Of a stretch of 64,000 bases of DNA, positions 10,258 through 22,151 are shown piece after piece. Where the stretch lies: contig WIXG01000105.1 in assembly GCA_009869945.1 (NCBI GenBank), positions 62,001 through 126,000 of the forward strand, in the 5' to 3' direction. This DNA comes from Mesaphorura yosii (Eukaryota > Arthropoda > Collembola > Poduromorpha > Tullbergiidae). Position numbers and translations under genes: made by a program. The notes under the pieces were generated by a model. That model saw only the letters and a program-made list of their open reading frames with translations, was not told where the DNA came from and did not search any database. Position 1 is the stretch's first letter; the number at the start of each line of letters is the position of its first letter.

Positions 10258-10388
10258 GATGCCAACTATAAATTTCGAGTTTGTGCTTCTTGACGACTGA
10301 TTGCGTTCAAATGGCCATGCGTATGCGCACTTGTAATAAGTTGGTCACTGCCACGATCACAATCGGACGTTAAGGCGAATTAGTTGTA

Positions 10389-10421
10389 CGAGGGTTGTTC
10401 AGAAAGAAATTACGGTTTTTA
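10389..10421 (+). repeat. Mariner left terminal inverted repeat
   Basis: Begins directly after the TA at 10387-10388 and pairs with 11632-11664 in inverted orientation, with two or three mismatches at the outer and inner edges. Confidence 0.88.
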
Positions 10422-11631
10422 TTTCATTTGTTATAATTACGCAAGCCAAGTTAGGATACATTTATTTCTCTACACAACCATCCTACAGCCTCACGCATTT
10501 TCCCCACCGGTGCTCTAGATCCGATATGCCTTTGTTGTAGAATGAGGAGGGTTGACTTCTCAACCAGTCACCCGAATACTTTTCCAATGAACTGTCGTCG
10601 GAAAATGTTCTCTTTCGTAGGAAGGTTTTCAGCTTAGGGACCAAATGATAGTCTGATGGAGCCAGGTGTAAGGTGGATGTTCAAGTTAGATGAATCCAAG
10701 TTGAGTTATTGTGGCTTGAGGTCATTTTGAAGTGTGTGAAGATGCGTTGTCATGAAGTAAGAAAATGCCATCCTCCCAAATCTCACCACGCTTCTTCTGG
10801 ACAACTTTCCTCAATTATTCTTTCAATATTTTTGCATAAACTTCACCATCATTGTGCTTCCTTTAGCAGAAAGCAGAACGCCAACTCTGCCCAAAAAACT
10901 AGCGCCATAAACTTCCTGATTGACAATTCCTTCATTGCTTTGATTGGAGCTTGTGAGCCGACAGGGAGCCATTCCATAGAATGTCGCTTTGATTCAGGTT
11001 CAAAATGACGAAGATATGTCTCGTCCCCCGTGTCAATTTGGCCTTCAAAACATTCCCTGTCCAAAGAATTCAATCGAAGGTTTTCTTGGCATGCAATTCG
11101 AATTCGCTTTTGTTCTGGTGTGAGAATTTTTGGAACCCATCTCCACAACGCAGCACGAGACCAAGGCAAAGTGAGATGATGTTGAATGCGATACCCAGTG
11201 TCAACTTTGCCTTTTTAGCGATCTCTCGAGTTGTCAGCCTTCTATCATTTTCCAGAAATTGCCTCATTTTGGTAATATTTTGATTACTTTGATTCGTTTT
11301 CGGTATTCCAGACTTCGGTCATCTCCAATTGTGAGATCTTCATCTGGGAATCTTTGCATCATTTTTCGACAGTGCTGAGACTGGGGTTTGCAAAAATGGA
11401 GATAGCTTTATCGCCTTCAGAATGACAGATGGAGACTTGCCTTGCAAGAACAAAAATTTTATTGCACTTTTTAATTCAAAGTTGCGAGACGCCATTGTCT
11501 TCACTCAGTGTGCTGTAACTTTGGATTAAAGTGAGCACACTGAATTAAACTTGGCGGGCGAAAAGAGTATATAGATATGCATTATCAATTTCTGATCCAG
11601 GTTCTATAGTGTACCGGAGATATGACTTATC

Positions 11632-11664
11632 AAAAAGCCGTAATTTCTTTCTGAACAACCCACG
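11632..11664 (-). repeat. Mariner right terminal inverted repeat
   Basis: Inverted copy of 10389-10421, followed by the TA target duplicate at 11665-11666. It lies at the 5' end of the transposase remnant, which reads on the minus strand. Confidence 0.88.
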
Positions 11665-12037
11665 TAGTTGGGGTTTGTCTTTTAGTCTTTTGTGGTTAAT
11701 GAATTAGGATTCCAAGAATTTGGAAATTGTACTCAGTGAGCAATGTCGGCTGTGACTTCCGGTTCCTACTGCTACTAATGTATTGCTTGTAAATTAGTCA
11801 TGCCCAAAGCGCTTTAATGCGAAGTAGAAGCAATTCAAAGAATTAAAAAGCTAATTCAGGCCAGGCATAAACGCTGTTACAATGCGCGGGCGCGGAATAT
11901 TTGCATTTAAATACTAAAAAATGAATTGCCACGCTAATGAACCACAAATAAGCCTATAATTACAACTTTAAACTGAACTCCGATTAGAACTGGAATAAAA
12001 AGTTTTTGTCAACGCTCAACACGCAATCGACGACGTT

Positions 12038-13318
12038 CTATTTGAAAGTTAACAACAAAATGATGGTCTTGCTGATTACAACACCCTCCATGAAGAGCAG
12101 AAAAGTGTCCCTCCTGCAGTACGACACATAATCGCCTGCCTGAAATTTGATTGGGCGACAAGACCTGAAAAACCGCCGATCATACGGCCGGATGGTGGCA
12201 TCATTCATGAGAAACGACTTCGGATAATTTACCGAGTGTTGACGAGTCTTGCAAGCCCGCACTTGGTAGATTGTGAATTGGATTACGGCGACCACGCCCG
12301 TAAGGCCCACGCGGAGTAGAAGTGGAAGGTGGGACCTTTCCATTGGGAATTTGATGACGGAGAAAAAAGACGTAATCACCATCAGCCCACCGGCGGAGAT
12401 GTGGACGAGCATGAGCGGCGTGAAAAATTCGAGACTGTTCACATGCAGAATTTGATGGGCACGGTAAAAGAGGCGGAAACTGGTCTTTTTCGCGGGCCAC
12501 ATGCCGCGCTTCCAACTGCAAACAATGCAATCAAACAGATTCAAGTTAGTCCGAATTCAGACAAATTTTCCAGTTTTGCCGTTAGACTTCAAATTCTACT
12601 CACACGAGGCGTCCGACCCAGTGCTGGGTCGAATTGACGTATATGGCAGTCAGGAACGAGAAGAAAAGTGTAATATTCCAGTTCATGGCCGTCCAAAAGG
12701 TCCACAGAAAAGCTGTCAGGACGTTGAATGATTTGTGTAACCAAAGACTCCGACTCCTTTGTTGATTAGCACTACACCGCTTGGGAAGTTTAAGCACAAC
12801 GCTTTCGTAATAGCCACCTTCATGATTTTCGCCACTCTTTCGAGCCCATCCACGAAATACGGCGGAACTTCGTAAAATCGAACTGGAACCCAAAGGTGAG
12901 ACTTTTCAAATTTAAAAGAGGCCCGGGAAAAGAAAGGAGCATCAAGGAAGTCAAGGATGCTTACGAAGCTGTTGGTTGAGCCGCAGAATTTTGTTGGTGA
13001 ACGCATGAATATTCCCTAATGCGCCAGAATGACTGATTGCATAATGATCGAGAAGGCGTACAGTGAAATGAAGAAGAGTGACAGGATATTCCTAATCGCA
13101 TGAAACTGCCCGTGCCTCGTGACCGAAATTATGAAGGTAATCACGACGAATCGGAAGGCAATGTTGATGTACGCGATGCAGTGCCAAATGCGAGTGTACA
13201 CGAGCTCCAGGTGATCGCTGTTTTCACGCTGCCAGTTCCAGCGATAAGGGAAGCAGCGGAACCATTGTCCAATCCGGATCGGGTACGTTCAATGTAGAAG
13301 AGTTCGGCGAGAAATCAT
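12038..13318 (-). pseudogene. Chemoreceptor-like seven-helix gene, copy A (broken)
   Basis: Same three-exon layout as its intact neighbours: exon 1 13318-12965, exon 2 12882-12604, exon 3 12515-12038, with all splice sites still present. Three lesions kill it. The Trp that is codon 10 in its neighbours is TGA (13291-13289). Exon 1 has lost one nucleotide near 13,014-13,018 (354 against 355 nt in copy C), which makes an immediate TAG. Exon 2 is 279 nt rather than 292, from a 13-nt loss near 12,726-12,745. Exon 3, by contrast, is intact at 478 nt and still encodes the conserved CRP(I/L)KFQ and LLLTFK end motifs, so the loss looks recent. An assembly error is unlikely to explain three separate lesions. 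Confidence 0.85.
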
Positions 13319-13753: not shown

Positions 13754-15059
13754 TTACTCGAAAGTTAGCAATAAATTGATTGTATTCCTGACTACAATCC
13801 CTTCTATGAAAATCAGGAAGAAGTCCCGCCTGCAGAAAGACACAAATCCGCCCGCCTGGAACTTGAGTGGCCGGCACGACTTGAAGAACGCTCTGTCATA
13901 CTTCTGGATGTTGGTTTCGTTCAGGAGAAATGATCGCGGATAGTTTTCTGAGTTCTCTTTAGTCTTACGGGCCCGCACTTGATAGATGGCAAATTCGACG
14001 ACGGCGACAACGCCCGTCAGGCCAACGCGGAAGAGGATTGGAACGTGAGACCTTTCGAACGGGAACTTGATGACGGAGTAGAAGGACGTGATCATCATCA
14101 TGCCGCCGGCTGTGATGTGGACGAGCATCAGCGCGGCGAAGAAGTCGACGCGAGTCGTGTGCAAGATTTGATGGGCACGATAGAGCAGGCGGTAGGCTTC
14201 CCTCTCCCCGAGGCGCATTCTTGGTTTCCACCTGCTCAAAAATGCTTCATTGTCGCTGATGAACTCGTCTTTTCAATATATTACTTACGCGAGCAACCCA
14301 ACCCAATGATGCGCAGAATTGACGTAGATGTTGGTCATGCACAGATAGAAAAGAGTGATTGTCCAGTCTGTGGCTTGAAAGAAGGTCCATATGGCAGCCG
14401 TCAAGACGTTGACCAGCCTGTGCGACGAACGAATGGCTCCAAACACACCGACTCCTTTGTTGATAAGCAGCACACCTAAAGCGATTATAGTATTTATTAT
14501 GAGCCCAGCCTGCTTTATGCAGTGCATTTAAATTTTACCGCTCGGAAAGTTCAAAAACAGTGCTGTCGTAATGGCCACTTTCATGACCTTCGCAATTCCT
14601 TCCATGCCATCAACCGAACCCGATGAAATTCCATAAAACCGAACTGAAATAAAAAAGTTAGAGGACTCTCGTAACGGAAAAGTTTAAAAGAATTAGCTTA
14701 CGAAGCTGTTGGTTGAGCCTCAGCATTTTGTTGATGAACACGTGAATATTCCGAAAGTGGATGACCATCACGGACTGCATGATGATTGAGAATGTGTACA
14801 GCGAGATGAAGAAGAGGGACAAAACAATCAGGACTGCATCGTCAAACTGGCTGCGGATGGTTACAACGATGATGAAAGTGACCACAAATATTCGGAGTGC
14901 AATGTTGCAGCACGCGATGCAGTACCATGTACATGTATAGACCAATTCTAGGCAATCGCCTTCGTCACGCTGCCAATTCCAGCGATAAGGCAGACAGCGG
15001 AGCCATCGGCCGATTAGGATCGGGTACGTCCAATGTTGAAGGGTGCGAAGAGAGATCAT
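13754..15059 (-). CDS. Seven-helix chemoreceptor-like protein, copy B
   Basis: Intact, 375 aa, four exons: 15059-14702, 14643-14539, 14475-14289 and 14231-13754, with phases 1, 1 and 2. It starts MISLR, like the MISRR of its neighbours. Hydrophobic segments can be seen in each exon: two in exon 1 (around residues 50-105), two in the exon 2 portion (around 135-215), and three in exon 3 ending at the C-terminal NLLLTF. This fits the insect gustatory/odorant receptor superfamily layout, whose last helix is also the most conserved, but the insect TYhhhhhQF motif is not present as such. The likely role is a ligand-gated channel in the dendrite membrane of chemosensory neurons, inferred from family only. 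It differs from copies A, C and E by a 63-nt intron (14538-14476) splitting the conserved NFPSG|VLLINKG stretch. Confidence 0.75.
14476..14538 (-). other. Copy-B-specific 63-nt intron
   Basis: Begins GTAAAA and ends TTTAG, and lies inside what is one uninterrupted exon in copies A, C and E. Removing it restores exactly the ancestral 18-nt context with no gain or loss of coding bases. It contains an in-frame TAA, so retention would truncate the protein. Confidence 0.8.
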
Positions 15060-15434: not shown

Positions 15435-16731
15435 TCACTTAAAAGTCAGTAACAAATTGACCGTATTCCTGATTACAATTCCCTCGATGAAAAGGAGGAA
15501 GAAATCCCGCCTGCAGTACGACAGTAGCTCTCCCGTCTGAAATTTGAGCGGGCGGCAAGATCTGAAAAACCGGCGGTCATACTTCCGGAGAGCGGGGTCA
15601 TTCAGGAGGAACGATCTCGGGTAATCTTCTGAATAAGTCCGAGCTTTGCGCGCCCGCACCTGGTAAACTGTAAACTGGATTACGGCGACCACGCCCGTCA
15701 TTCCAACACGGAAAAGGATCGGAACGTGGGATTTCTCGAACGGGAATTTGATGACGGAGTAGAAGGACGTGATCATCATGAGCCCACCGGCAGAGATATG
15801 GACGAACATTAGCGGAGCCAAAAACTCGAGGCCTGTCGTATGCAGAATTCGAAACGTACGGTAGAGCAAGCGAATCGTGACCTTCGTCTTTGGGCGAATT
15901 CCTGCTTTCCAACTACATCAAACGGACACCGAATAAATCGGAAATTATTCCTGGTTAAAGTGCGTCCTTATCCTTTTCCTTATCGCAAATTCTTACGTTA
16001 GCCGTCCAACCCAATGCTGAGCCGTGTTGACGTAGACCAGTGTCAAGAACGAGTAAAAGAGTGTGATGTTCCAGTCCGTCGCCTGGAAGAATGTCCAGAC
16101 CAGCGCAGTCAAAACATTGACTGGCTTATGGGACGACCGAATCGAGCCAAACACTCCGACTCCTTTGTTGATAAGCACTACTCCGCTTGGGAAGTTTAAA
16201 AATAGCGCCGTTGTAATGGCCACCTTCATCGTTTTGCAGATGCCTTCGATTCCGTCAACGAAGTCACGCGGAACTCCGTAATAGATCACTGAAAAATAAG
16301 GTCAATTCGTGCTAACAATACGTTGCATGTAGAAGAGAAGCCAAGCCAACAAACAAAAAATGCAGCCGCTGCTTACGAAGTTTTTGATTGAGCCTCATCA
16401 TTTTGTTCATGAACCCATGAATATTTCGGTAGTGGCGGAGCATGACGAACTGCATGATGATCGAGAAAGTGTAGATGGAAATGAAGAACAGGGACAGGAC
16501 ATTGGTGACCGCGTCGAAATGGCTACGAAGTGTCACGAATATAATGCAGACGACCAACACACATCGAAACGCGATGTTGAGGCACACCAGGCAGTGCCAC
16601 AGCCTTGAGTAGACCAATTCCAGGTGACCACCGTCCTTCTTATTCCAATTCCACCGGAACGGGATGCTCTTCAACCAAAATCCTACTCGGATGGGGTACG
16701 TCCAATGCTGTAGGGTTCGACGAGAAATCAT
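15435..16731 (-). CDS. Seven-helix chemoreceptor-like protein, copy C
   Basis: Intact, 374 aa, three exons: 16731-16377 (355 nt), 16288-15997 (292 nt) and 15912-15435 (478 nt), intron phases 1 and 2. It is the best reference for the family in this window. Exon 1 encodes MISRRTLQHW, the LELVYSRLWHC segment and two predicted helices. Exon 2 encodes two helices around KVAITTALFLNFPSG and LVWTFFQATDWNIT. Exon 3 encodes three helices and the motifs YRTFRILH, SFYSVIKFPFE, SCRPLKFQTG and NLLLTFK. There is no signal peptide. The length of about 375 aa fits gustatory-receptor-like proteins of arthropods. Family assignment is by topology, length and clustering, not by a diagnostic motif; an unrelated lineage-specific membrane family remains possible. 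Confidence 0.75.
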
Positions 16732-17302: not shown

Positions 17303-17980
17303 CTTAAAAGTTTGCAGCAAATTGATCAAATTGTTGAGAAAAAATTCATCCAATATATCAGAACGAAGTCTCGGTCAGTGTGTAGCAGGCAGCTTATCTG
17401 AAACCTGAGCGGTCAACAAGACTTTTAGAAATGCCGGTCGTAATATCGCATGGTGATGACGTTCCGAAAAAAAAACCTCGGGTACTTTTCCGAGTTTTCG
17501 CGGACTCGTCGAGCTCGCGCGCGTTCAACCACAGTGAAGATTACAGCAAACAACCCAATCAAACCAACACAGACTGGTATATTGAGCCTTTCCAGTGGAA
17601 ACTTGATGACAGAATAGAAGGATGTGATCATCAACATGGAGCCGGCTGAGGCCGAGACGCTGAAAAATTCGAGGGCAGTTGCATGCAGGATTTGATGGGC
17701 GCGGTACGGCCGATGGAGCTGAGTCTTCGTTTCCAGGCACATTCCTCTCGTTCAACTTCATCAAAAACACTTGTTAAAAATATTAATTTGTTGATTCGAA
17801 CTGCGCTTAACACGAAAACTTACACAAGATGCCCAACCGAATGGTGAACAGAATTGACGTAAATCAGGCCCATATAAAAGAAAAAGTGCACTGTCGTGCA
17901 GGGACAGAATATTTGTGAACGGATCGAAATGAGAGAGAGTCGCCACAACAATAATGCTCGTAATAACGACGACTCGAAAT
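17303..17980 (-). pseudogene. Chemoreceptor-like gene, copy D (internally deleted relic)
   Basis: Reads on the minus strand. Around 17,975-17,895 a piece of exon 1 (VVVIT, SHFDPFTNILSL) is still readable. It then joins almost directly a relic of the end of exon 2 (YVNS, HHSVGHL, about 17,880-17,825), so the second half of exon 1, the intervening intron and most of exon 2 are gone. Exon 3 follows from about 17,760. Recognisable pieces are YRAHQILHATALEFFS, SAGSMLMITSFYSVIKFP and ENSEKYPR. It has small in-frame losses and stops in the FxKSCxPLxFQ region, and an NLLQTFK end at 17,323-17,303. The 5' start codon region is missing and replaced by AT-rich DNA. Confidence 0.82.
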
Positions 17981-17982
17981 GT

Positions 17983-18018
17983 GAAAATATATAAATATAT
18001 AATATATATCGAAATATA
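17983..18018. repeat. AT-rich simple repeat
   Basis: Imperfect TATA/ATAT run directly at the 5' breakpoint of chemoreceptor relic D. It marks where homology to the intact copies ends. Confidence 0.5.
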
Positions 18019-18556
18019 AATGCCCTTTCTTATCTTTCCTTTCTTTTCCTAATATTTTCACTTTCTTCAAAAAGTCCAGAAGTCATTTTTCAGGGGCTTG
18101 TCGTCGTCCAACCTGCTCCTGCGGATTAAACTTTAAGGGACGAGCGATGGGTGCTTGAGGAGATTTGTATTGGGCTTGATGAGGTACGCAACGAATGCAA
18201 CACCAGCGGTCGGCGCGGTAGCCAAGGGCCAAGACTTTTAAGCACTGAGCAGTGCCCCTCGAGCTCGCATTACAAAATTTGAAAATTTAAAGATTCGGTG
18301 TCGTAATTTAGAATTTATAAAACTAGCCTGAGCAACTAACTGAGCAAGAAGTGAATTGTCTTGTCTTTGCTCTTAATTTGCAGAAATGTAGGACATTTCT
18401 TTATAGCTCCATGAATATTTACTGAAAAATTTGATCAAGCTCATGAATTTTTACTTGTAGTTGAATGATTTCGTGGATACCCGAAAAATTGCCAATGTTG
18501 GACGGCATGCGATTTCTAACCCGAAGCACTTACGTAATCGATTTCACATATTCGTA

Positions 18557-18562
18557 TTTATT
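18557..18562 (-). terminator. Candidate poly(A) signal of chemoreceptor copy E
   Basis: Minus-strand AATAAA 67 nt beyond the copy E stop codon. Confidence 0.4.
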
Positions 18563-18628
18563 AGCAGATCAGCATGATTATGCTTATGCATTCACAGTTT
18601 TCTGTTGTGTGGTTTTTACACGTATCCC

Positions 18629-19901
18629 TTACTTGAATGTTAAGAGCAAGTTGATGGTATTGCTGACCACAAACCCTTCCAGAAAACTCAAAAGGAAGTC
18701 GCGACTGCAAAACAGCAGAAAGCACGTCTGAAACTTGAGTGGCCGACAAGATTTGAGAAACTGTCGGTCGTATTTCTGTGTGTTGGCGTCGTTCAGGAGA
18801 AACGACCTCGGGTAGTTTTCAGAGTACTCTCGGATCTTTCGAGCCCGCACAAGGTAGACTCCAGTGATGAGCAGACCTAGTACTCCGGTCATACCAACGC
18901 GGAGCATGATTGGTATATTGGGTCGATCGAATGAGAACTTGATAACCGAGTAAAAGGATGTGACCATTAACGTGCCCCCAGCTGACACCCACAGAAGCAT
19001 CACCGCGCTAAGAAACTCGAGGGCAGTAGAGTGAAGGATTTGATGTGTGCGGTACATCATTCGGAAAGTGGCCCTGGTTTTCTCGTCCAATTCGCTCCTC
19101 CAACTACATGAAATTTCGAGTTACGCTCAACTCGATGGAACAACATCGATATCGAGAACAGTCTTGTACTTACACAAGGCGTGTCACTGAATTCTGAGCC
19201 GAGTTGACGTAGATGGAACTCAAGTACAAGTAAAAGTGAATCACAGTCCAATCAGTAGCTTGCAAGAAAGTCCAGAGCAGGGCAGTCAAGATATTCACAG
19301 GTAGATATGAAGACCGAATGAATCGAAAGACTCCAGCGCCTTTGTTGATAAGGAGCACACCACCCGGGAAATTTAAGAATAGCGCCGTGATCACGCCTGT
19401 CTTCATAGCCTTCAGAATTCCTTCGGCCCCGTCGACAAAATCCGATGGGGTTTCATGCAACCGAACTGGAAGACGAACAGAAATCAGAAATAGGCATCTA
19501 ATTTGATTTAATTTGAAACATAGCTTAGATCACTTACGGAGCTGTCGATTGAGCACAAGCAAGTTGTTGATGAATGTGTGAATATTCTGGTAGTTGATTA
19601 GGAGGAGGGACTGCATGCCGATCGAGTAGGTGTAGACCGAAACGAAGAAGAGGGACAGAATATTTGTGATTGGATCGAAGTTGGAGCCAGCTGTCACCAG
19701 TATTATGGAGCTAATCACAACCACACGAAACGCGATGTTGAGGTACGCGATGCAGTGCCACAGCCACAGGCGCGAGTAGACCAACTCCAAGTGGTCACCT
19801 TTCTTGCTGCCCGCCCAATTCCACCGATAAGGAATACAGTGAAGCTGCAAACCGATTCGGATGGGGAAGGCAAAATAATGGAGAGACCGACGAGAAATCA
19901 T
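18629..19901 (-). CDS. Seven-helix chemoreceptor-like protein, copy E
   Basis: Intact, 376 aa, three exons: 19901-19538 (364 nt), 19465-19174 (292 nt) and 19103-18629 (475 nt), phases 1 and 2 as in copy C. It starts MISRRSLHYF and ends NLLLTFK. It is the most diverged intact copy. Exon 1 has two or three extra codons near SKKGDHLELVYSRLWLWHC. The exon 2 ending reads AQNSVTRL instead of AQHWVGRL, and exon 3 has replaced the VHISAGG context by LWVSAGGTLMVTSF. The SCRPLKFQ motif is kept. It is the first, most 5' member of the minus-strand array. A candidate poly(A) signal lies at 18557-18562. Role and caveats are as for copy C. Confidence 0.75.
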
Positions 19902-20600: not shown

Positions 20601-22151
20601 TTATGGAGAAATATCACGTCGCAGATCTTGATTGGTGACCCTGATGCGAAGTTTGATGTCATGCGCGTGAGTGTGCCGAGGGCTTGGTCCGAGATCACTG
20701 AATGCCGCCTTCAGGTTCAGGAACCGACGGCAGAACGGGCATGACAGGCCCATCCGATCAAATGACTGGTAGAACTCGGCGCGATACTCGAACGGAGGAA
20801 CCAAAGGGACGTGGTAAGCTTCGTCTCCTGACGGCACATTTGAGGCGCTCCCAGCTTCGGTCAGGCTGATGTAGTAGCCAATCTCCTGCTCCTTCGGATG
20901 ATAACCGGTCACTCCATTGTACTGGAAGTGAATGTGGAGGGCGCATCTATTGCCACAGCTAGGGCATTGAATGCGCATGTTTTGGAAGTCGAATCTGCGG
21001 ATTTCGGCAGCTGAAGGCGGGAGTCCTGTGCAAAACAGCAAAACTTCGTTTAGCACTTGCGCAGTGTACATTTCCGGCTTTTGCAGTGCAGTGAACCAAA
21101 TTTTTAATCCTTGCTTACCAAGTACGAGAGGCACCCCGCGATAAATCGACTCCTCGTTTAAACCAATTGCTTGAACAAAACTCGGATGACTGAGGAAGCT
21201 GAGTTCTCCGCCTGGTGACTGCGGAGAACCGACAGGCAACTGCTGCTGCTGACCTCCACCCGCGCCCGGGCTGACATTAAAAGTTGCATTTCCAGGAAGA
21301 TTTTGGTCGTTTGGAGGAGGGGTGCCACCACCGGCTGACTGTGGGGAGCCAGGAGGCTGCTGACTGCCACCGCCGCCTGGATTTGAAGAGTTGCTACCAC
21401 TGCCAAAGCTCCGATCGTTGTTAAAGCTGAAACCAGCGCCACCGGCTACCTCGGGGCTCCCAACAATAAGCTGCTGGTGACGGGCAGCAAAATTCTGATC
21501 ATCCAGAAAACCGAGACCACCTTCCGCTTCTGGAGTGCCAGGAGGCTTCTGCTGTTGCTGACCTCCGCCTCCGACTGGGCTTCCATTTTTTGATTGCGGA
21601 GAACCGAAGAGCAGACCCAGTCCGCTGTAGTAGCTGACATCCTTCCCACACGGCGTGCTGGGGCGACTGGCGAACGAATTTCCTGCTCCTGTCTGTCTGT
21701 CTGAAACAGAAGTCAACTGACTGTAGCCGCCTAATAAGCTGCTTGCCTTGCTTGACTGATCAGCTGCACCATCGCCTGGGCTGTTCCTGCTCACTGAACC
21801 AGAAGGTCCACGTCCGCCTGCGTCAACGTTGCTTTCATTTCTTGATTGTGGAGTACCAGAAGGCGAATGCGGCTGCTGACCTCCGCGGCTGACATTAAAA
21901 GTTGCATTGCCGGGAAAATTCTGATCATTCGGGAAGCTGGAGCCACCGCCTCCAGGGAAGTATTGTGGAGGTGGAGAAGCGTAGTCCACTCTTTCAATAA
22001 GCTGTCCGATGACTCGCGTGGCACAGTTCATCTCGTCAACCGATTCTCTCATGTTTGCAATCAAAGTCAACAACTGAGGAAGTGTTTCGTACGGGATGAA
22101 GCCGACGCCATGCTGTCCAGAGGGGTCGGCGACGGGCGAAGTCCCGGCCAT
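20601..22151 (-). CDS. Gly/Gln/Pro-rich protein with C-terminal CxxC-type domain, function unknown
   Basis: One open frame of 516 codons starting MAGTSPVADPSG. Residues 1-60 form a short, helical-looking N-terminus (LPQLLTLIANMRESVDEMN). Residues about 70-330 are low-complexity and probably disordered, built from imperfect repeats of a unit like NDQNFPGNATFNVS followed by Gly runs, GQQQ and PPGSPQS. The last 131 residues are non-repetitive: CPSC near 396-399, a further Cys at 403, CPFC near 471-474, and His-rich spacers, suggesting one zinc-binding module. A good GT-AG intron (21118-21026, 93 nt, stop-free and a multiple of three) lies inside the frame. The protein is therefore either 516 aa or, if it is spliced, 485 aa. 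Head-to-head with the kleisin gene. I do not recognise the family. Confidence 0.7.
   Translation of the reverse strand: MAGTSPVADPSGQHGVGFIPYETLPQLLTLIANMRESVDEMNCATRVIGQLIERVDYASPPPQYFPGGGGSSFPNDQNFPGNATFNVSRGGQQPHSPSGTPQSRNESNVDAGGRGPSGSVSRNSPGDGAADQSSKASSLLGGYSQLTSVSDRQTGAGNSFASRPSTPCGKDVSYYSGLGLLFGSPQSKNGSPVGGGGQQQQKPPGTPEAEGGLGFLDDQNFAARHQQLIVGSPEVAGGAGFSFNNDRSFGSGSNSSNPGGGGSQQPPGSPQSAGGGTPPPNDQNLPGNATFNVSPGAGGGQQQQLPVGSPQSPGGELSFLSHPSFVQAIGLNEESIYRGVPLVLGKQGLKIWFTALQKPEMYTAQVLNEVLLFCTGLPPSAAEIRRFDFQNMRIQCPSCGNRCALHIHFQYNGVTGYHPKEQEIGYYISLTEAGSASNVPSGDEAYHVPLVPPFEYRAEFYQSFDRMGLSCPFCRRFLNLKAAFSDLGPSPRHTHAHDIKLRIRVTNQDLRRDISP
21026..21118 (-). other. Possible in-frame intron (exitron-like), 93 nt
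   Basis: Starts GTAAGC and ends in a pyrimidine-rich stretch plus CACAG. It encodes 31 sense codons in the host frame (KQGLKIWFTALQ onward), so both the spliced and the retained transcript keep the frame. Intron-sized like the others in this window. Confidence 0.6.

Follow-up and report, generated by a model that had tools for sequence, protein, structure and literature searches.

For most gained introns, no source is known. Among the novel introns of Drosophila described by Farlow et al. 2010 (PMC2809761), GTRAGT donors and CAG acceptors are found less often and premature stops more often, and the decay of unspliced messages was proposed there as a shelter for such introns. The review of Yenerall and Zhou (PMC3443670) covers insertion during break repair; as described in it, 43% of gains in Daphnia have flanking repeats, gained introns of Drosophila show no enrichment for flanking repeats of at least 5 nt, and thousands of intron gains are without known origin. 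For 187 gains in Drosophila, no definite mechanism is reported (PMC3296678). Receptor genes also feature in this literature: for the sugar-receptor lineage of insect gustatory receptors, the inferred numbers are 12 gains and 63-65 losses (PMC2667405). Given these published gains, the kind of event reported here is already known, receptor families included, and the 12 gains counted in the insect sugar receptors alone make it too strong to say, as a preliminary description of this locus did, that such gains are rarely caught.

Here we report a fresh case of this known event, a 63-nt GT...AG insert that is found in one copy of a tandemly repeated gene (copy B) of the collembolan Mesaphorura yosii and is probably a private, spliced intron gain. 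The insert resembles the novel introns of Drosophila (PMC2809761) in being private, in interrupting coding sequence, in having a non-GTRAGT donor and a non-CAG acceptor, in carrying an in-frame stop if retained, and in having no identified source. Whereas those introns were placed by orthologues, the insert of copy B is placed by paralogues within one genome and is known from DNA alone. Its flanking repeat is 3 nt long, compared with at least 8 nt in the repeat examples given for Drosophila (PMC2809761). Like the break-repair introns of Daphnia, as outlined in PMC3443670, the insert is flanked by direct repeats, here of 3 nt, and it is without a genomic copy. Introners and introner-like elements, as presented in the same review (PMC3443670), are alike in that an inserted sequence becomes an intron; for the insert of copy B no second copy was seen. 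As in the insect sugar receptors (PMC2667405), the receptor family evolves fast, private introns occur in it alongside shared ones that are old, and losses are many. Unlike the sugar receptors, the family studied here has no Pfam 7tm_7 match, and the gain is placed by paralogues of a single genome.

Taken alone, the putative intron of copy B adds a single example, and its interest is modest. Nevertheless, it is private, has weak splice sites, interrupts a gene that is intact in other respects, and has intact as well as dead paralogues with the site empty beside it. Such a situation allows a test, on a small scale and in nature, of the view that new introns begin as poorly spliced insertions, which are tolerated since failed splicing leads to a premature stop.

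The gene cluster and the insert in copy B

The window, that is, the whole stretch of DNA analysed, comprises 64,000 nucleotides (positions 62001-126000 of contig C105), and the assembly searched comprises 93 Mb in 1127 contigs. We identified five tandem members of a family of multi-pass-looking membrane proteins on the minus strand, at about 12.0-19.9 kb of the window. Two further close copies, on contigs C830 and C549, were found by a protein search with exon 2. The members of the cluster are:

12038..13318, minus strand: copy A, a pseudogene, without the insert at the site
13754..15059, minus strand: copy B, bearing the 63-nt insert
15435..16731, minus strand: copy C, frame intact, without the insert
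about 17353..18042 (bounds approximate), minus strand: copy D, a fragment with stops that ends short of the insert site
18629..19901, minus strand: copy E, frame intact, without the insert

The spliced frames of copies B, C and E and of those on C830 and C549 are intact and encode 374-376 aa. The pseudogenes, copies A and D, make up two of the five tandem copies; in copy A, codon 10 is a stop, and deletions have removed 1 nt towards the end of exon 1 and 13 nt from exon 2. Two introns of 57-88 nt are common to all six full copies (A, B, C, E, C830 and C549), and a third interruption, of 63 nt at 14476-14538, is present in copy B alone. The parts of copy B, in the order of transcription, are:

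14702..15059, minus strand: exon 1
14644..14701, minus strand: intron of 58 nt at family position ~119, common to copies A, C, E, C830 and C549
14539..14643, minus strand: portion of exon 2 that lies 5' of the insert
14537..14539, minus strand: GGT repeat unit at the 5' edge of the insert
14476..14538, minus strand: 63-nt GT...AG insert in exon 2, a putative gained intron private to copy B
14474..14476, minus strand: GGT repeat unit at the 3' edge of the insert
14289..14475, minus strand: portion of exon 2 that lies 3' of the insert
14232..14288, minus strand: shared intron of 57 nt at family position ~213-216
13754..14231, minus strand: last exon, ending in TAA; the spliced protein has 375 aa

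On the coding strand the insert reads GTAAAATTTAAATGCACTGCATAAAGCAGGCTGGGCTCATAATAAATACTATAATCGCTTTAG, starting with GTAAAA and finishing with CTTTAG. Its removal joins AGC G|GT GTG in phase 1 at the conserved Gly154 codon, giving the junction NFPSGVLLINKG, which is the aligned context in copies A, C, E, C830 and C549, and leaves an intact frame of 375 aa. The 1128 coding nt of copy B contain no other lesion. If the insert is retained, its length, a multiple of three, adds 21 codons, the third of which is TAA, i.e. the frame stops after two codons. The preliminary description is borne out in reporting a GT-AG insert of this length in exon 2 of copy B, its absence from copies A, C and E, and the ancestral codon context on its removal, with the caveat that comparator A is a pseudogene.

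The junction of the insert slides over the 3-nt direct repeat GGT. Among the 12 introns shared by the close copies, the slide is 0 nt in 10 and 2 nt in the other two. If GGT was duplicated at insertion, the target would supply both the donor GT and the acceptor's G, so that a GT...AG pair would need one matching base and would, by itself, be weak evidence for an intron.

Survey of the family at the insert site

Family members were gathered by the exon-2 protein search and by a full-length search (112 matches); part of these places was fetched, and the counts given here cover that part. A profile of five close copies was compared with the six-frame stretches of 86 loci, with identical stretches counted once. 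In this automatic comparison 40 distinct stretches, those of copies A, C, E, C830 and C549 and of 35 distant members, are open in one frame through family position 155. Automatic read-through was absent from 18 family-matching loci, five of which (L001, L009, L012, L035 and L036) are windows on copy B itself. Seven more non-B loci proved continuous on reading (L015, L030, L061, L063, L070, L072 and L081), with L015 read from a contig edge and L030 read past a TAG. Overall, the site is read through and the insert is absent at 47 of the 53 non-B family places examined (40 automatic, 7 manual). No outgroup intron at the position of the insert was found among these 53 places, of which L022 is broken near the site and L074, L079, L083, L084 and L085 gave no call either way.

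The L022 locus (C841:17089-18942) is a distant fragment at a contig end, and its frame, read by eye, breaks ~5-15 codons downstream of the site. The motifs GTAAGT, TACTAAC and TTCTCAG occur near the break. The six best candidate splices score 44.3-46.0 bits, less than 2 bits apart and too close to single out one of them; the break is possibly another private intron.

Introns at ~119 and ~213, the two shared positions, also occur in distant relatives. This indicates that those two introns are old and that the insert of copy B falls outside that set. Many distant members are single open frames of ~380-440 aa (378-442), for example C933, C784, C420, C641 and C452, and others retain the introns at ~119 and ~213; intron content is thus highly variable within one family.

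Phylogeny and age of the insertion

A protein tree was built from the six close copies together with 19 distant members, and in it the latter separate from the close copies with support of 100/100. If the insert had been present at the root, the best tree would call for four losses (in copy A, in C549, in the clade of C, E and C830, and in the distant members), a count that takes the distant members as one clade and rises to five if they are counted as two. For the sequences compared, a single gain in copy B is the shortest history. The branching among the six close copies is weakly supported, apart from the grouping of C with C830 in the DNA tree (99.8/98), and the DNA and protein trees disagree; this grouping is not repeated in the protein tree. 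The AU test does not reject a tree in which copy B is sister to all the other close copies (delta logL 4.7, AU p 0.33). The parsimony argument is weaker for that reason, since an older gain followed by one loss amounts to two events on this tree, compared with one event for a gain in copy B.

These results qualify two further statements of the preliminary description, that parsimony favours gain in copy B over repeated loss and that the gain is recent. The preference for a gain stands as the shortest history, with 47 of the 53 places lacking the insert, but the opposing scenario of repeated loss shrinks from four losses to two on the unrejected tree. Recency is neither supported nor excluded. 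Synonymous divergence (Nei-Gojobori) is near saturation, with a dS of 1.24 between A and B and of 1.46 between B and C, and the A-B value of ~1.2 bounds the age from above only, so we make no claim of age beyond the order of events. On the preferred reading of a gain in copy B, the insertion would be later than the split of B from the other copies.

Splice signals and coding constraint

With 63 nt and a GC content of 0.33, the insert is within the range of the 12 shared introns (57-88 nt, GC 0.31-0.44). Because the introns of the close copies occupy only two positions, a splice model built from these 12 was superseded by one built from 40 family introns. The larger set adds to the 12 a further 28 of the 35 introns inferred from distant members, several of which belong to near-identical paralogues; the seven left out are not clearly at shared positions, and one of them (L081, at 105-117) is near the first. 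The donor, GTAAAA, is without the G at +5 that is present in 35 of the 40 family introns, and it scores above only three of the 40 (weaker than 37). The sum of donor and acceptor scores exceeds that of only one family intron (weaker than 39 of 40). The acceptor, CGCTTTAG|G, is ordinary, as 15 of the 40 score no better. Exonic sites score at least as high as the donor at 86 of 380 GTs and at least as high as the acceptor at 44 of 272 AGs. In the model from the 12 close introns alone, the insert falls below all 12 at both ends, and both models argue against strong splicing. A branch-like CTCAT is located 24 nt from the end of the insert, and no competing AG precedes the terminal AG within 32 nt.

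The pN/pS of copy B relative to the majority of the other copies is 0.155 upstream and 0.19 downstream of the insert. Low pN/pS was considered as proof of present function of copy B and was dropped, since dead copy A is similar, with a value of 0.21 on both sides; the measure is therefore blind to recent death. In simulations, a B-like frame is still free of stops with a probability of 0.46 after 0.02 neutral substitutions per site, and of 0.05 after 0.08. This suggests that a long death of copy B is unlikely and that a recent one is possible.

Proposed mechanism and possible source of the insert

We propose that filler DNA was inserted in copy B after the split and is removed as a weak phase-1 intron, an explanation to which, taken as a whole, we assign a probability of about 0.73. 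Specifically, a short piece of filler DNA would have been inserted at GGT in exon 2 of copy B once this copy had separated from the others. The 3-nt flanking repeat suggests that the insertion most likely took place in the repair of a small staggered break. Both the donor GT and the acceptor's G would have come from the duplicated GGT. It is probable that the spliceosome excises the 63 nt as a phase-1 intron, which would restore the ancestral protein. In any message left unspliced, translation would end two codons into the insert, and nonsense-mediated decay could remove such a message.

One other candidate for the origin of the insert was set aside. Tandem genomic duplication of AGGT, in which the insert would copy the adjacent exon, does not fit the context of the site in copy B, AGCGGT, and the best match within the cluster is not the adjacent exon. 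For break repair by NHEJ, flanking direct repeats of at least 5 nt were considered as a criterion; the repeat found here, GGT, has 3 nt and falls short of it.

The preliminary description suggested looking for a source copy elsewhere in the genome, and this search matched only the insert itself. Specifically, no second copy of the insert was found in the 93-Mb assembly with all 63 nt as query and E up to 10, and the 24-nt core, with up to three mismatches, matched only itself genome-wide. Since the DNA search passes over words of very high frequency, the absence of a second copy is strong, not absolute. There is also no match to COX1 in the assembly, so that this absence applies to nuclear sources of the insert, not to mitochondrial ones.

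Within the cluster, the best match to the insert is the 3' flank of copy E (18549..18602, minus strand), just past the stop of that copy. The match is on the same strand and covers insert positions 1-53, with 39 of 55 alignment columns matching. This flank holds an AATAAA, and no other copy of the flank was seen in the genome. The score of the match is reached within the cluster by 3 and 2 of 1000 real-sequence controls, and by 6 and 4 of 1000 when the controls are taken from other contigs. Dinucleotide shuffles reach it in 3, 0, 0 and 2 of 200 cases on the sense strand, under four scorings, and in 81-185 of 200 on the antisense strand. In a search of both strands of the whole window, the score is reached by 11 of 150 controls; under the scoring used first, it was reached by 16 of 40 Markov-resampled sequences. 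Significance is lost in the whole-window control, and we regard the flank of copy E as a weak lead to a possible source, not as a finding. If this source were true, a new intron and its source would both survive in one cluster.

Alternative explanations

Alternatively, the insertion may be unspliced and may have recently killed copy B by truncation at ~156 residues, with GT...AG present by chance. Death of copies is documented in this cluster, where two of five are dead, and one chance base would make GT...AG if GGT is a target duplication. The donor score is matched or beaten by 86 of the 380 exonic GTs, and the low pN/pS, with dead copy A alike, is compatible with a recent death. However, copy B is otherwise free of lesions over 1128 coding nt, a lone 63-nt insertion would be an unusual first lesion, and the length, composition, acceptor and AG-free 3' end of the insert are all intron-like. 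We consider this loss of function unlikely, if deserving of serious attention. It is very improbable that the intron predates copy B, having been present in the ancestor of the close copies or of the whole family and then lost elsewhere, as 47 of the 53 non-B places are without the insert, including keepers of the introns at ~119 or ~213, and as its presence at the base of the whole family would entail four losses on the best tree. Such a history would be in line with the differences in introns among family members, many of which are single open frames of 378-442 aa, and with the break in the frame of L022 ~5-15 codons downstream; on the tree with copy B as sister (AU p 0.33) it would need a gain in the ancestor of the close copies and a single loss.

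The flanking GGT could be a short target-site duplication, as would suit a copy of a mobile introner-like element. Multiple genomic copies would be expected of such an element, whereas the searches with the 63 nt and with the 24-nt core found only the insert, and we regard an introner origin as barely credible. The intron may, as a special case of the explanation preferred here, have had the 3' flank of paralogue E as its template during break repair, with the AATAAA stretch included. Within the cluster no sequence matches better than this flank, which lies on the same strand and agrees in 39 of 55 columns, and 2-6 of 1000 within-cluster controls reach its score; but the match was picked out post hoc, and the score is also reached by 11 of 150 whole-window controls and by 16 of 40 Markov-resampled sequences. 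We therefore consider templating from this flank improbable. Overall, a filler insertion in copy B that is removed as a weak intron is the reading that we prefer.

Family assignment and other features of the window

Comparison of copy C with Pfam returned no family at E up to 1. Ten relatives gave no match to 7tm_7 (PF08395), and three of these have sub-cut-off matches to unrelated families. Also, a profile of 11 relatives found no solved relative by sequence. In the genome, 93 places match 7tm_7 with E up to 1 and no fewer than 45 of these exceed the curated cut-off, a number suggestive of an arthropod; one distant place of the family studied here (C68:252036-252401) overlaps a sub-cut-off 7tm_7 match of 22.6 bits. 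As there is no convincing Pfam match, we use 'chemoreceptor-like' as a working label.

Elsewhere in the window, an open frame of 516 aa at 20601-22151 (minus strand) overlaps a set of internal direct repeats; compared with Pfam, it matched no family at E up to 0.01. At 10385-11665 the window contains a degraded element, which we take to be mariner-like; its ends share the inverted sequence GGTTGTTCAGAAAGAAATTACGG, and its frames are broken by many stops.
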